A stretch of DNA of 63,265 bases from Anaerolineae bacterium (GTDB lineage: Bacteria; Chloroflexota; Anaerolineae; Aggregatilineales; Phototrophicaceae), in the NCBI GenBank assembly GCA_022843745.1, contig JALHNB010000041.1:1-63265 (forward strand), in the 5' to 3' direction. Position numbers and translations under genes: made by a program. Positions 35,150-41,309 of the stretch are shown in pieces (positions within the stretch are counted from its first letter, which is position 1; each line of letters opens with the position of its first letter). Below the pieces are notes generated by a model that saw only the letters and a program-made list of their open reading frames with translations, was not told the DNA's origin and did not search any database.

Positions 35150-37069
35150 TTAGCCCTGGCGGAAGGCTTGCAGCGTTTCCAGATAATAATCCGGCAGGCC
35201 GATGTCGAAGCGCTGCCCGTCGATCATCAGGCCCATAAAGCCATCTTCTCGCCGCAGACGATCCAGCGCGGACGTTAATTGAAATTCACCACGCTCCCGA
35301 ACATTATTATTGATATGTTCTTCGAGATAGCTGAACAACTGGGGCTTAATAATGTATTGGCCGAAGACGGTCAGATATTCGCCATCCGGTATATTCGATA
35401 CCCGCAGATTGGCGCGCGCATAGTCTACCGTCGGTTTTTCGGCAAATTCGGTGATATTCAGCAGCGTGTCTTCCAGCCATACGCCTGTGACCGTTCCAAA
35501 ATTTGCCAGCATATTCTCCGGCGTACTGCGGAGGCCAATCACGCTTGTGCCGTGCTGGTTGTAAGCATCGACTAATTGACGTGCGCACGAGCGTTCACTG
35601 TCTGAACGATAGAGATGATCGCCGAGCATCAGCAAAAATGGCTCGTTGCCGATCAGATCACGTGCCGAATAAATCGCGTGTCCCAGCCCTTCCTGTGTTC
35701 GCTGGATCGCGAATTTGACGCGCTGTCCCATTTCCAGCAGGCGCAGCGAATACTCCTGAAAATGGCGTGGCAGTTTGTTGAAATTTTCAATCGACACCTG
35801 CGTATTGAAGAAATGCTTAAACTCGTCCAGGTCGTCTTCCTGGACAATGATAATCACTTCGTCCATTCCGGCATCCAGGGCTTCTTCAACGATCAGCAAA
35901 ATGGCGGGCTTGGCGATCCCATCGCGATCCACCACCGGGAAAAGCTCTTTCTTGGTGGCTTTGGTGGCTGGGAAAAGCCGTGTGCCAAAACCCGCTGCGG
36001 GGATGACTGCTTTGCGCACCTGCGTACCAGCGTGCAGCGTTAACTTGAGGGTGCTCATTTTTAAATCTCGCTCGATGATCTCAATGACCGCTTGCTGGTC
36101 GGCTTCGCTGCGGACGATAAACTGCGCTGTGCCGTCACCTTGTGAGCCAACGCCTTTTCCGCCATATATGTGAGGCTTGAGAGGCTCATAATTTAAAACC
36201 TGATGCAGCACAGGCGCGGTTAATTCTTCGGGACAGGCGGGCGTGGCGTAGAGATCAAAATAGGTTTGCGCTTCGGTCATCAATTCACCGAGGCGCTTCG
36301 CATCAGAATTTTGCAGGGCTTCCAGTGCTTCATGGGTGATGCGTTTGTTGATCGGGCCAAGCAATTCCTGTACCCCGCGCTCGATCTCGTTTTCGGCAAA
36401 AGGATAGGCTTTATTCAATCGAGCCAGGATTTCCATCGTGTCTTTGCGGGCGTGCAGATCGACAATCACGAAGTGCAAATCCTGATTCACGCGCAGTTCA
36501 GTCGTATCCAGGCGATCCCCGTCAAAAGTCATCAAAACCGGGCGATCCCCAAACGCGCAGCCCTGATCCATACGTCCGCAGCGCGAGGGTGTGACGATTT
36601 CGCCCTGATAGGCCATTTCCATCTCGCCGCGAACCGTCATTTTGAGATCGTAGGCGCGATTGAAAGCCCGTGCCGTCAACACACAAATCGCCGCGCTGGA
36701 TGAAAGACCTTTTTTGACCGGCATATCCGTGTGGTAATTGTGGATGGTCAAGCCGCGCACACGGTAATGCGTCAAAACCTGATAAGCGGTTCCGGCAATA
36801 TAGCTCCAGAAGCCGCCGCGCTGGGCTTCCGCCAGTAGTGCTTTGGGTTCCATCGGAATTTCGTAGGGGCCGTGCGTGATTCCATCTGGCGTTGTAGAAC
36901 TCAATATAAGCGCAGTAGGGTGCTGCTCGATTTCGGCATGGATGCCTTGATTCGTGCCTGCAATCAGGGCATAACCCTGTTCAATTTCCGCGTTAATGCG
37001 GCGATAACCACCTGCCCAATCCGAGTGTTCACCAAAGAGGCAGATGCGCCCTGGGACAAAGATTTTCAA
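35150..37069 (-). CDS. GHMP sugar kinase fused to UTP-sugar-1-phosphate uridylyltransferase
   Basis: This 639-residue protein joins two enzymes. Residues 1-345 are a GHMP kinase: galactokinase-like opening PGRICLFGEHSDW, ATP motif KKGLSSSAA (about 118-126) and a C-terminal GGKGVGSQGDG motif. Residues 355-639 are a GalU-type nucleotidyltransferase: AVIPAAGFGTRLFPATKA, KELFPVVD and AEKPTVDYA. Start is TTG at 37067-37069, with AAAGGAG seven bases upstream. Taken together it could convert a free sugar to its 1-phosphate and then to a UDP-sugar. Galactose (from the GH36 enzyme) is a plausible substrate but glucuronate or arabinose are possible. Confidence 0.88.
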   Translation of the reverse strand: MKIFVPGRICLFGEHSDWAGGYRRINAEIEQGYALIAGTNQGIHAEIEQHPTALILSSTTPDGITHGPYEIPMEPKALLAEAQRGGFWSYIAGTAYQVLTHYRVRGLTIHNYHTDMPVKKGLSSSAAICVLTARAFNRAYDLKMTVRGEMEMAYQGEIVTPSRCGRMDQGCAFGDRPVLMTFDGDRLDTTELRVNQDLHFVIVDLHARKDTMEILARLNKAYPFAENEIERGVQELLGPINKRITHEALEALQNSDAKRLGELMTEAQTYFDLYATPACPEELTAPVLHQVLNYEPLKPHIYGGKGVGSQGDGTAQFIVRSEADQQAVIEIIERDLKMSTLKLTLHAGTQVRKAVIPAAGFGTRLFPATKATKKELFPVVDRDGIAKPAILLIVEEALDAGMDEVIIIVQEDDLDEFKHFFNTQVSIENFNKLPRHFQEYSLRLLEMGQRVKFAIQRTQEGLGHAIYSARDLIGNEPFLLMLGDHLYRSDSERSCARQLVDAYNQHGTSVIGLRSTPENMLANFGTVTGVWLEDTLLNITEFAEKPTVDYARANLRVSNIPDGEYLTVFGQYIIKPQLFSYLEEHINNNVRERGEFQLTSALDRLRREDGFMGLMIDGQRFDIGLPDYYLETLQAFRQG

Positions 37070-37238: not shown

Positions 37239-37268
37239 TTGGCCTGGGGATACCTTAGCGGGTATGAT
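37239..37268 (+). promoter_or_regulatory. candidate promoter of the lysine operon
   Basis: TTGGCC (37239-37244) and TATGAT (37263-37268) are separated by 18 bases, placing transcription start near 37275, 20 bases before the first leader peptide. A palindrome GGGTA-TGA-TACCC (37260-37272) overlaps the -10 box. Sequence only, no consensus for this organism is known. Confidence 0.4.
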
Positions 37269-37294
37269 ACCCTCAGTAATTTTGAGTGAGAATT

Positions 37295-37351
37295 ATGGTC
37301 ATTTCAATTAACCTGTTCAGCAAAAAGGATAAGAAGAACAAACCTGACTGA
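37295..37351 (+). CDS. lysine leader peptide 1 (18 residues)
   Basis: The short frame MVISINLFSKKDKKNKPD has five Lys in 18 residues, clustered at codons 10-16 (AAA AAG GAT AAG AAG AAC AAA). It stops at TGA 37349-37351, three bases before the antiterminator strand. A weak GAGTGAG site precedes it. The downstream operon makes lysine, so stalling at these codons when charged tRNA-Lys is scarce would favour readthrough. Translation is inferred from the context, not proven. Confidence 0.65.
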   Translation: MVISINLFSKKDKKNKPD

Positions 37352-37353
37352 TA

Positions 37354-37430
37354 GTCCGGGCTTTTTTGCTGCAACAGATCATGCGCCAACGAAACCTGCC
37401 CGGACAACCGGAGCAGGTTTTTTTAATTTT
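37354..37430 (+). promoter_or_regulatory. attenuator 1: antiterminator and intrinsic terminator
   Basis: Terminator: AAACCTGC (37392-37399) pairs with GCAGGTTT (37413-37420) and CCGG (37400-37403) with CCGG (37408-37411), loop ACAA, then seven T (37418-37424). Antiterminator: GTCCGGGC (37354-37361) is the exact reverse complement of GCCCGGAC (37398-37405), which contains part of the terminator's left arm, so the two structures exclude each other. A ribosome at the leader stop codon covers 37354-37361 and lets the terminator form. Confidence 0.75.
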
Positions 37431-37464
37431 GTTTACAGTTTTTAAATTTTGTTTAGGGAAAGCA

Positions 37465-37533
37465 ATGCAAGTTTTTGAAGATAAGCAGAAGCAGATCAAG
37501 CAGACCAAGCAGACGGAACACACGTCTGGATAG
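37465..37533 (+). CDS. lysine leader peptide 2 (22 residues)
   Basis: A second short frame starts at ATG 37465 with AGGGA five bases upstream, and ends at TAG 37531-37533. Its middle is KQKQIKQTKQ: four Lys (all AAG, codons 7, 9, 12, 15) alternating with Gln. The last two sense codons (TCT GGA) form the antiterminator strand of the following hairpin. A ribosome stalled at the last Lys codon would leave that strand free; one at the stop would hide it. Confidence 0.6.
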   Translation: MQVFEDKQKQIKQTKQTEHTSG

Positions 37534-37594
37534 CTGCCCTGCGTCGAGAAAAAATCGCGCTGCGCCGTCCAGATACGATTGGACGGCGTTTTTT
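37525..37594 (+). promoter_or_regulatory. attenuator 2: antiterminator and intrinsic terminator
   Basis: Terminator: CGCCGTCCA (37563-37571) pairs perfectly with TGGACGGCG (37580-37588), 8-base loop, then six T (37589-37594), only 19 bases before the homocitrate synthase start. Antiterminator: TCTGGA (37525-37530) complements TCCAGA (37568-37573), extendable by one G-U pair. This alternative is weaker than in attenuator 1, but its position relative to the leader stop follows the same logic. Confidence 0.65.
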
Positions 37595-37613
37595 ATTTTG
37601 ATAACCAAGAGGC

Positions 37614-38768
37614 ATGATGCACAGACAACAACACCCGATTCACGATTTCCACATTATTGAATCTACTTTGCGCGAAGGGGAGCAGTTTCAGGGCGCACAT
37701 TTTTCGACTGCGGATAAAATTGAAATCGCTCAGGCGCTTGATGCCTTTGGCGTGGAATATCTCGAGTTATCGACCCCGATTGCGAGTAAACAAAGCGAAG
37801 CTGATCTGCGCACGGTAGCTGCCATGCCGCGCCGCTTTCGCGTACTGACGCACATCCGCGCCCGCATGGAAGAAGCAAAATTAGCCGTTGACTGCGGCGT
37901 TGATGGTGTCGATATTTACATCGGCACATCCGCCTATATGCGTGCCTACAGTCACGGCAAAAGTTTGCAGGAAATCATCGAAGTCAGTCGGGAGGTTGTG
38001 CGCTACCTCAAAGATCACGGAATAGAGACGCGCTTCAGTACCGAGGATACCTTCCGTAGTAATCTGGCGGATACCTTTACTGTCTACCGCGCGATGGACT
38101 TGGAAGGGGTTCATCGTGTCGGTGTGGCGGATACCGTTGGTGTAGCTGACCCGATGCGAACCTACAGCCTGATTAGCAGTTTGCGGCAGGCAGTTCACTG
38201 CGACATCGAATTTCATGGTCATAACGACAGTGGCTGCGCGATTGCCAATGCGCTGTGTGCGCTGCAAGCGGGCGCGACTCATATCGACACCACTGTTCTC
38301 GGCATCGGTGAGCGTAACGGCATCACGGCACTCGGCGGTCTGATCGCGCGTTTGTACACGATGGATCCTGAACTGGTCAAAAAATATGACCTGCCGCTGT
38401 TGCGCGAGATCGAAGAATTGGTCGCTTCTAAAGTTGGAATTGAGGTGCCTTTCAACACGCCGATCACAGGCCGGACAGCGTTTCATCACAAAGCAGGCGT
38501 ACACACCAACGCGGTTCTGCAAAATCCGACCAGCTATGAGGCCATCAATCCGCTGGATTTCGGCATCGGGCGCTCGATTGATCTGGCGCATCGCCTGGTC
38601 GGCTGGAACGCCGTTCGTGATCGCGCCGCAACGTTGGGTTTGGCGCTTTCTGAGGCTGACCTGCGCAGCGCGACGACTCAGATTAAAACGCTGGCTGATG
38701 CCGGACGTATCACGCTCGATGATGTGGATGCCGTGCTTCGTGGAATGGTGACGCAGGAGGTTGGCTGA
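37614..38768 (+). CDS. lys20: homocitrate synthase (lysine biosynthesis, AAA pathway)
   Basis: This 384-residue enzyme condenses acetyl-CoA with 2-oxoglutarate, the first step of the alpha-aminoadipate lysine route. It has the HMGL-like TIM barrel with [11 protein letters not shown] (metal Asp/Glu region and Arg), [15 protein letters not shown] (two metal His) and [13 protein letters not shown], which marks the Lys20/Thermus-type homocitrate synthase rather than LeuA (GERAGN). [12 protein letters not shown] lies near the C-terminus. A second ATG at 37617 is better spaced from AGAGG. The stop overlaps the next start (TGATG). First structural gene after two attenuators. Confidence 0.85.
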
Positions 38769-40060
38769 TGGGCGCAACCTTCACCGAAAAAATTTTAGCT
38801 CGCAGCGCAGGTCGTCAATCAGTTCAGCCGGGGGATGTGCTGGATATTGAGCCGGATGTTGTCCTGAGCCACGATAACAGCGCCGCGATTGCCAAAACAT
38901 TCGCGCAGCTTCCACACGGGCGCGTCAAATATCCCGAACGGCTGGCAATCACGCTCGACCACGCCGCGCCACCACCCACGCCCAAACACGCGCAAAATCA
39001 CGCCGATGTGCGGGCGTTCGTGAAAGCGCAGGGTGTGAAGAATTTTTTTGAAGTCGGGCGCGGCATCTGCCATCAGGTCTTTAGCGAAGAAGGCGTGATC
39101 GGCCCTGGCATGATTTTGCTCGGCGCGGACAGCCACAGCACTCATCCCGGCTGGCTTGGTGCATTCGGTGCGGGTGTAGGGCGAACCGAAATTGCCGCGA
39201 TCTGGGCGACAGGACAGTTGTGGCTGCGTGTGCCGGAGACGGTGCGCGTGACGCTCACCGGACGGCTGAACCCTGGCGTGATGTCCAAAGACTTTACGAT
39301 TGCGCTCATCGGTCAGCTTTCCGCCGAGGGCGCGAATTACATGGCTGTCGAGTTCGATGGCCCTGGAATCGCGACCATGACACCGGAATCGCGCATGGTG
39401 CTGCCGAATATGATGGCCGAAATGGGCGCGAAAAATGCCTATATCGCGCCGGACGATGTGACGTGGGCATGGATTGAGATGCAGCTTCGTCGCAGTCGAC
39501 CAGAAACGGTTGATGAACGAATCGCCTATTTCCGCGAACGTGTACTCTATCCCGATGCTGATGCGAACTACGCTGAACAGCACACCGTCGATTTGAGTAC
39601 GATTGAGCCAATGGTTGCCCGCCCACACAGCGTCGATAACACGGCAAAAATTTCCGAAATCGCCGGGACGCATGTCGATTTTGCGTTTCTCGGAACATGC
39701 ACCAACGGGCGCTTAGAAGACATCGCCGCCGCTGCCGAAGTCGTGCGTGGGAAACATTTGCAAGCGCGTTTGCTGGTCATTCCGGCATCGGCGCAGGTGT
39801 TACAGGACGCTCTCGCGCAGGGCTACATACTCGATCTGGTTACTGCGGGCGCGACGATTGGCACACCGGGGTGCGGCCCGTGTATGGGCAATCATATGGG
39901 AGTTCTCGCGCCGGGTGAAGTCTGCATCAGCAGTGCGAATCGCAATTTCCAGGGGCGCATGGGCGAACGCAACGCCGAAATTTATCTGGCGAATCCAGCC
40001 GTTGTCGCGGCTAGCGCAGTTGCGGGCTACATCGTTCACCCCGCCGATATAATCACATAG
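38768..40060 (+). CDS. lysT: homoaconitase large subunit (LysT/LeuC-like)
   Basis: This 430-residue subunit of the 3-isopropylmalate dehydratase/homoaconitase family carries the 4Fe-4S ligands in FLGTCTNGR (Cys) and [12 protein letters not shown] (two Cys). [11 protein letters not shown] and the [13 protein letters not shown] region form the substrate site. It isomerises homocitrate to homoisocitrate with the small subunit. Start overlaps the homocitrate synthase stop by one base, so coupled. Assignment to lysine rather than leucine rests mainly on the upstream homocitrate synthase. Confidence 0.85.
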
Positions 40061-40165
40061 CCCGAAAGATGAGGTTGATCCTATGCTTTTGGGTGGGTTT
40101 TTGTGAGCCTCAAATTGATATAGTTGAATCGAAATTCTCAACACATCAATTTGGGGAAACGACAC

Positions 40166-40822
40166 ATGAGCGCGAATGAGATCAAAACGGAAGCGAAGGA
40201 AACAGGGCGGCTCGAAGCCTTCAGCGATGGTGTGATCGCGATTGCCATTACGCTGCTGGTGCTGGAAATCCACGTGCCACCCGTAGATGAAGGCGGTGCA
40301 TTGTTAGCCAGCTTGCTTGAACAGTGGCCGATTTATCTGGCATTTTTGTTGAGCTTCGCCACCATCGGCATTATGTGGATTAACCACCATCGCCTGTTCA
40401 CGGTCATCAAACGAGTCGATCATAATTTTTTAATTTTGAATACGTTATTGCTTTTGGGAATTACGCTCGTGCCGTTTACCAGTGCGCTTTTGGGGGAATA
40501 TATTGGTCATGAGGGTGAACAGGTTGCCGCGATGGTCTACAGCGGCGTGTTCGTGGTCATCGCCATCTTTTTCAATCTGATGTGGTGGTATGCGGCGCGG
40601 CACAACTGGCTAGATATGACCGGAGAAAGTTTGCGGATTGTGCAGATCACCAGCCGCCAATATCGGTACGGCCCATTGTATTATCTCGCGGCGTTGCTTT
40701 TAGCGCTCGTCAGTGTGCCGTTGAGCATCGGCCTGAATATTTTACTGGCTCTCTACTTCGCGCTGCCCGCAAACGTGGTGAGCCATCTGATTTTTCGAGA
40801 GGAAATGGAAGCGAATGTCTGA
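40166..40822 (+). CDS. TMEM175-family potassium channel (DUF1211)
   Basis: This 218-residue membrane protein has six helices. The family filter helix is [20 protein letters not shown] (residues about 16-35), followed by WINHHRLF in the next segments. Bacterial TMEM175 proteins are tetrameric potassium channels. The ATG at 40166 was chosen because GGGGA lies nine bases upstream; an in-frame ATG at 40124 lacks one. The gene lies between the two homoaconitase subunit genes and overlaps the small subunit by eight bases, an unexpected position with no obvious metabolic link. Confidence 0.85.
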
Positions 40823-41309
40823 ACATCGAGTCTGGAAATACAGCGATAACGTCAACACCGATGTGATTTTCCCCGGCAGATACACCTATACGGTCAGCCA
40901 TGATCCGTTGGAATTGGCGAAACATGCGCTGGAAGACCTCGACCCGCAGTTTGCCGGACAGGTGCAGCGTGGGGACGTGATTCTCGCTGGACGCAATTGG
41001 GGCAATGGCAGCAGTCGTGAACAGGCTGTCACGTGTTTGATTGCATCCGGCGTTCGTGCGGTGATCGCCTCGTCATTCGCGCGTATTTATTATCGCAACG
41101 CCATCAACAGTGGTCTTTTGTTGATCGAATGTCCGGCAATTGTGCCGCATCTGCAAACGGGCGATGTCATTACGCTTGACATTGAAAATGCGACGCTGAC
41201 ATGTGCGGCGGGGACGTTCGAATTTCCACGTTTGCCGGAATCGGTGCAGGGGATTGTCGAAGCTGGCGGCCTGATCGAATATCTGAAGGCGAGTTACAAG
41301 GCAGAATGA
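40815..41309 (+). CDS. lysU: homoaconitase small subunit (LysU/LeuD-like)
   Basis: This 164-residue swivel-domain subunit has [13 protein letters not shown] near the start, the family motif [14 protein letters not shown] (about 58-71) and [21 protein letters not shown]. In LeuD the corresponding block is NFGCGSSREHA. It completes homoaconitase with the large subunit. The start lies inside the end of the TMEM175 gene, indicating translational coupling. The operon ends here, followed by a dispersed hairpin repeat. Confidence 0.85.

Follow-up and report, generated by a model that had tools for sequence, protein, structure and literature searches.

The window analysed here, a stretch of 63,265 nucleotides from an Anaerolineae bacterium of the family Phototrophicaceae, carries on its plus strand a group of lysine genes: homocitrate synthase (37614-38768; TIGR02146 above cut-off), a homoaconitase-type large subunit (38768-40060; TIGR01343 above cut-off), and a homoaconitase-type small subunit (40815-41309; TIGR02087 above cut-off), with a TMEM175-type channel-like protein (40124-40822) inside the operon between both homoaconitase genes. 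These matches support the gene assignments of a preliminary description, made from the letters alone, which had described a serial pair of Lys-rich attenuators before homocitrate synthase and homoaconitase genes. The upstream gene (35150-37069), a fused GHMP (galactokinase-like) kinase and nucleotidyl transferase, lies on the opposite strand, so that both terminators described below sit in the lysine operon's leader rather than behind another gene.

As read from its sequence, the plus-strand segment 37295-37594 is a set of two complete predicted leader-peptide attenuators in front of the homocitrate synthase gene. A weak promoter-like site (TTGGCC-18-TATGAT, 37239-37268, plus strand; 9 of 12 consensus matches) lies 26 nt upstream of leader 1; the scan that found it returned six such sites over both strands, with 2.7 expected by chance. 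The first module opens with the predicted leader peptide MVISINLFSKKDKKNKPD (37295-37351; 18 aa, five Lys), whose KKxKK motif is common to the first leaders of relatives. Its Lys codons make up segment 1 (37318-37328), which pairs with 37361-37371, and an antiterminator of 8 bp, all exact, joins segment 2 (GTCCGGGC, 37354-37361), starting 2 nt past the leader stop codon, to segment 3 (GCCCGGAC, 37398-37405), within the left arm of the terminator. Intrinsic terminator 1 with its U tract spans 37391-37424 (hairpin 37391-37421, 9+4 bp with one bulged A). Beyond an AT-rich stretch (37425-37460), the second module begins with a Shine-Dalgarno-like site, AGGGAAAG, upstream of the predicted leader peptide MQVFEDKQKQIKQTKQTEHTSG (37465-37533; 22 aa, four Lys and five Gln). 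Here segment 2 (GTCTGGAT, 37524-37531) runs from the final codons into the first base of the stop codon and forms eight pairs, six Watson-Crick and two G-U, with segment 3 (GTCCAGAT, 37567-37574); intrinsic terminator 2 with its U tract follows at 37562-37594 (hairpin 37562-37589, 10 bp and a loop of 8 nt). In the window fold of module 2, CTGC beyond the stop codon also pairs with two GCAG triplets from the Lys/Gln codons, and CGTCTG with CAGACG.

The attenuator features found at this locus are a Lys-rich short ORF, an intrinsic terminator, a predicted antiterminator that excludes it, and lysine genes downstream. Two frames, two terminators, and two complementary segments all lie where the preliminary description had put them, with the antiterminator strands at the leader stops (just beyond the stop in module 1, overlapping it in module 2), and the exact 8-bp antiterminator claimed for the first module was borne out. 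Two details had to be amended: the word "perfect" does not suit the first terminator, with its bulged A, and the six Watson-Crick pairs of the second antiterminator are joined by two G-U pairs instead of one.

Chance expectation, covariation, and pairing specificity

Against a background of 16,824 codons from long ORFs in the window, Lys is enriched in leader 1 (5 of 17 codons, p = 0.0002) and in leader 2 (4 of 21, p = 0.005). To count as a module, a sequence had to combine a U-tract terminator folding at -12 kcal/mol or below, an ATG frame 10-40 codons long that contains four or more Lys, and six or more exact complementary bases between the stop-codon region and the left arm of the terminator. 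Under this definition, the real sequence of 37270-37613 holds two modules and its dinucleotide-preserving shuffles hold none (0/400); fold z-scores are -3.4 and -3.6. A simple terminator scan detected terminator 2 and missed the bulged terminator 1, and since it returned six terminator-like sites against 4.7 expected, that scan is by itself no evidence. No Rfam family, T-box included, reached the gathering threshold within the window. A lysine riboswitch (RF00168) was considered and rejected, having no match in the window or the genome; 4 of 14 control genomes do match.

We then asked the alignments of homologous modules for compensatory change. Alignment A1 comprises 21 of 24 modules found by a terminator-and-frame script and by eye, leaving out L036 (a near-copy of L037) and two second modules that have no U tract (L070_2 and L077_2). 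On A1, RNAalifold chose the antiterminator (2:3) helix unprompted, plus three further pairs. This helix is paired in 93.1% of cells, with 16 double-change cells against 5.8 in shuffled alignments (0/500 shuffles); the terminator (3:4) helix is paired in 82.5%, with 11 double-change cells against 4.0, and the inner 1:2 helix is 88.9% paired with no covariation. For the 38 first modules (A2) and the 38 second modules (A3), with the tandem locus L208 left out, the antiterminator is paired in 88.9% and 90.1% of cells, with 20 double-change cells in each (shuffled, 5.7 and 5.9), and the terminator in 85.7% and 97.4%, with 13 in each (shuffled, 3.8 and 2.7). All four counts were reached in 0/500 shuffles, and the covariation score of all four helices drops on sliding by 1-3 columns; RNAalifold chose 2:3 on A2 and 3:4 on A3. 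Members of A2 and A3 were gathered with a model holding their consensus sequence and the 3:4 pairs, and because models R1-R3 contain the terminator pairs, the 3:4 counts are biased in favour of those pairs. No search model held the 2:3 pairs, although the consensus sequence was included; the E-values of R1-R3 are rough. Alignment of homologous loci, the check named at the outset, thus gives an antiterminator and a terminator that are mutually exclusive and that covary in both modules over 38 pairs.

A permutation of own against cross-species duplexes, in fixed alignment columns, gave 0/2000 for 2:3 and for 3:4 in both modules. The inner 1:2 pairing gave 4/2000 in module 1 and 72/2000 in module 2, and the outer 1:2 pairing, between the Lys codons and the strand after segment 2, gave 0/2000 in module 1 and 185/2000 (not significant) in module 2. 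The 2:3 energies are -14.4 and -10.9 kcal/mol for own partners and -6.8 and -6.7 kcal/mol when crossed between the modules; segment 2 thus pairs poorly with the segment 3 of the other module, and each module has its own pairing address.

Distribution in Phototrophicaceae

Model R1 was built from 21 modules, the window's own two among them. In the 7.96-Mb genome, at E of 10 or below and with 150 of the 1633 first-pass candidates scored, it returned the window pair, a second pair, and a fifth match that is an antisense echo of the second pair (E 0.75). This second tandem pair lies on another contig of the same genome (C31 of G000, 66154-66464, minus strand; locus L117) and is followed by lysW, lysX, an argC-type frame in the place of lysY, and a [LysW]-aminoadipate kinase, as well as an argD/LysJ-type transaminase (under the LysJ cut-off and over the argD cut-off) and a [LysW]-lysine hydrolase. 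With the second pair standing before lysW/lysX genes, both lysine operons found in the genome have a tandem leader.

A homocitrate synthase search over 101 genomes matched 73 at E 1e-80. The nearest relatives (L004/L033, L005/L035, and L006/L034) have the tandem pair, and genus g20 has a single module ahead of homocitrate synthase. Over 200 relatives, R1 gave 121 matches in 78 genomes, including 31 close pairs in 26 genomes; when the 90 clusters were rescored at a looser threshold, 38 family clusters proved to be pairs. All 65 family clusters of the first model precede lysine genes (55 lysW, 10 homocitrate synthase). The claim of two Lys-rich attenuators in series before lysine genes is therefore supported by conservation, by covariation, and by gene context. 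Separate first-module and second-module models, run on all 98 family genomes at E 1e-5, found the tandem arrangement at 39 loci, spread over 34 genomes that represent 15 of 24 genera, with gaps of 10-69 nt (median 30) between the module matches; 48 genomes have the first module only, including 33 of the 34 genomes of genus g18, and 16 have neither at this threshold. The pair is accordingly kept in about a third of the family, in position, Lys codons, and covarying helices; the outcome that would have counted against the preliminary description, absence from close relatives, was not observed. At the same time, 48 genomes with the first module alone and 16 with neither imply that two modules are not indispensable.

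This last point bears on whether both modules of a pair are in use. The genomes that have the first module alone, like the single modules of other families, manage with one, as one would expect if a pair consisted of a single working attenuator and a relic of duplication or replacement. Against this, Lys codons, terminators, and covarying antiterminators are kept in both modules of 38 pairs, the window's genome has a pair at both its lysine operons, and the tandem state is scattered over a quick LysX tree. That tree has 52 rows (49 family rows, from the 65 clusters, and three outgroups), with state scored per genome and not per locus, and its 32 tandem and 17 single rows call for at least eight tandem/single changes, five of them forced by well-supported branches; such a pattern would fit an old pair that was repeatedly lost or regained. 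We consider a relic very improbable, and prefer two working modules.

A parallel rather than serial arrangement would follow if one promoter lay before leader 1 and a second lay between the modules, where the AT-rich stretch might accommodate it. The simple scan by which promoters were examined has no plus-strand site between the modules, and the gap at the 39 loci leaves little room for a promoter together with a leader start, which makes an internal promoter unlikely, though not impossible; we give parallel modules scarcely any weight compared with modules in series.

Several other elements were seen in the course of this survey. At L070 and L077, within the 250 nt before homocitrate synthase, a second Lys leader is accompanied by a strong hairpin that has no U tract, perhaps with a different output. 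Between the terminator and homocitrate synthase, L068, L070, and L077-L080 share a recurrent element resembling GGCCGAYGAYGGC..CTGCA..GACGCAG, and at L085 a T-box-like GGTGGTACCACGG with a terminator lies some 100 nt upstream of the homocitrate synthase match; both were recognised by eye, and neither has an Rfam match at the gathering threshold. Among viral contigs, no relative turned up.

Sensed codons and the proposed series response

First leaders average 4.0 Lys (n = 37) and second leaders 4.5 (n = 38), or 26% and 22% of residues compared with 3.4% in the window's ORFs; the first-leader figure leaves out L189a and counts L176a, in a wrong frame, with zero Lys, and both read KKAKKQN by eye. 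Lys codons are kept in both leaders of the 38 family pairs, in line with the conservation that had been proposed as a check. It had also been suggested that the second leader, in which Lys and Gln alternate, may sense glutamine. A second module that read glutamine or general nitrogen supply would turn the pair into a two-input gate, and the window's leader 2, with five Gln in 21 codons (p = 0.0008), looks the part; one Gln is also frequent in second leaders (KKQSKK). Five Gln is, however, the maximum among the 38 second leaders and belongs to the window's species; the mean is 1.5 Gln per second leader (0.4 per first leader) against 4.5 Lys. Structure may moreover explain some of the Gln codons, two GCAG triplets pairing with the CTGC past the stop. 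The suggestion of glutamine sensing is thus not supported by comparison with the other second leaders, and a two-input gate seems to us highly improbable: judging from codon content, Lys codons dominate both leaders and a glutamine sensor is not needed. Separately, we set aside the idea that the Gln run is itself a pairing constraint, which agrees with the two GCAG:CTGC helices of the window fold yet finds no support in codon bias; the choice of CAG over CAA (41:17 in leaders, 407:186 in genes) is not special and favours neither side.

The Lys codons themselves are strongly skewed. Across the 38 family pairs, leaders use AAG and AAA 267:51, compared with 138:203 in the downstream genes (odds 7.7, p = 1e-31), which would be understandable if the leaders sensed AAG-reading tRNA-Lys specifically and not lysine generally. 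This would be a refinement of the main reading, and we think it rather unlikely, since AAG may be favoured through pairing with the CUUGCU strands and the window's leader 1 has three AAG and two AAA. Either base pairing to CUU strands or the sensing of a single tRNA-Lys could lie behind the excess.

Alongside the anatomy, conservation, covariation, and gene context observed above, we infer that the leaders are translated, that transcription terminates in vivo, what the signal is, and how the series works. Very probably, the locus is the leader of a lysine operon of the AAA pathway and holds two complete transcription attenuators of the ribosome-mediated kind, placed in series, each of which reads charged tRNA-Lys. 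In each module, a ribosome reaching the leader stop codon would cover segment 2, leaving segment 3 free, and the terminator would form; a ribosome waiting at the Lys codons would instead cover segment 1, whereupon segment 2 would pair with segment 3 and open the terminator arm. Polymerase would get to homocitrate synthase only after passing both modules, so that output would be the product of two read-through probabilities; repression would then be multiplicative and tighter, and the response steeper, than with a single attenuator.

The pairing geometry was probed by a fold simulation in which the transcript is cut after segment 3 and the ribosome footprint extends 12 nt from the A site. Averaged over Lys-codon stalls, the simulated probability of 2:3 pairing was 0.67 for first modules and 0.71 for second modules; with the ribosome at the stop codon it was 0.11 and 0.00, and with no ribosome the family means were 0.18 and 0.39. 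The probability was higher for Lys stalls than for the stop codon in 29 first modules and 33 second modules, out of 38 each, and so not in all. The sign of the simulated effect is as expected, in a model sensitive to geometry and position and not to codon identity. The window's own modules, folded with no ribosome, are open (0.99 and 0.75), which makes closure without translation doubtful.

Other families and relation to known systems

At E 0.001, R1 matched 133 of 395 class genomes and 27 of 400 phylum genomes, with the window's own genome counted; 20 of these match sites were examined. By eye, tandem pairs are present in families f42 (G489, G469), f58 (G467), f40 (G242, G278, G261), and f23 (G317, with a long gap), and further pairs outside Phototrophicaceae were found at L214 (f3) and L216 (f10). 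The 25 clusters outside the family precede lysW (7), homocitrate synthase (6), argG (3), and proS (2), with seven unplaced by the motif test. Two one-contig genomes of 5,258,541 and 5,801,598 bp, which we take to be Chloroflexus aurantiacus J-10-fl and Roseiflexus sp. RS-1, have a single module each, the first (with a weak U tract) before homocitrate synthase and the second before a homoaconitase-type large subunit. At L243 (G629), a single Lys attenuator precedes a LysE-type translocator (PF01810), an odd target for a starvation-induced switch.

Weak R1 matches also stand before argG (L215, L220, L223, and L235) and proS (L218 and L236), genes confirmed by family models. Of the four argG leaders, three are rich in Arg (e.g., RRRTDERSDPASG and RRRADERSDPASG, each up to its stop codon), L220 having only two Arg, and the proS leaders contain four and five Pro. 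Five of these six leaders (not L236) end in SG and stop, TCTGG-TAG, with CCAG in the terminator arm. A scaffold pattern matches in 35 of 200 genomes, chance matches included, and a reversed control pattern gave 2 matches. Among ten scaffold-pattern loci that were read, two have Arg-rich leaders, before argC (L283) and argG (L286), two (L281 and L282) precede a lysX-like frame and contain few Lys, and the remaining six appear to be matches by chance. A scaffold of the same kind at L217 has an Arg-rich or Pro-rich leader. Codon content and gene context point to one putative attenuator scaffold with exchangeable sensor codons (Lys, Arg, Pro). On balance we lean towards a wider picture for the Chloroflexota, in which a scaffold with swappable sensor codons (Lys codons ahead of lys genes, Arg codons ahead of argG and argC, and Pro codons ahead of proS) would coexist with serial Lys modules in several families, the strands being orthogonal in Phototrophicaceae and the cascade squaring the response to one aminoacyl-tRNA.

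The classic leader-peptide attenuators are those of E. coli trp, his, leu, and thr, which likewise combine regulatory codons with a mutually exclusive terminator and antiterminator, but are single, belong to Proteobacteria, and read other amino acids. Closer in pathway is the lysine gene cluster of Thermus thermophilus, which is reportedly controlled by leader-peptide attenuation; Lys codons in a leader peptide are reported to precede homocitrate synthase-pathway genes of the AAA pathway there as well, with one attenuator where there are two here.

According to the available text of PMC3766115, the Rfam attenuators at the time were His, Leu, Thr, and Trp only. A 2010 survey (PMC2965389) was aware, in the part available, of no leader-peptide attenuators outside Proteobacteria and Actinobacteria, before itself reporting one in Firmicutes; its main text has no mention of Chloroflexi, lysine, or Thermus, and the word "tandem" refers there to a rimP terminator or to transcription starts and to nothing else. 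Our literature search, which covered few subscription articles, found neither a leader-peptide attenuator in Chloroflexota nor a tandem one for lysine. The modules described here would thus extend leader-peptide attenuation to a phylum absent from that survey, as far as its main text goes.

Other leaders double one or another of these parts. The rimP-leader of several Gammaproteobacteria has a second, tandem terminator, the upstream one having an antiterminator; two terminators in tandem are thus found there as well, in an element that the same text (PMC2965389) does not describe as leader-peptide based. The tandem riboswitches of B. clausii metE place two sensors and two expected intrinsic terminator sites in one leader, as described in the portion available of PMC3641672, and differ in being metabolite-binding RNA, without a leader peptide and with two ligands. 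The nearest parallel in the same source is Salmonella mgtCBR, with tandem leader-peptide attenuators for ATP and proline that act independently and additively, and with hairpins that its authors consider unlike intrinsic terminators; the abstract calls it a "singular example" (PMC3641672). Because of mgtCBR, the initial remark that a tandem pair was not known cannot stand in general, although for lysine it agrees with what our literature search returned. As far as the available text goes, the likeness is that a single leader RNA contains a pair of short leader ORFs, each of them tied to alternative stem-loops; mgtCBR responds to two signals, whereas here codon content indicates one signal, and there are two intrinsic terminators. 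A conserved cascade of attenuators for the same signal would be a natural test of how responses can be tightened and steepened without a repressor protein, and the family offers natural one-module and two-module versions of it.
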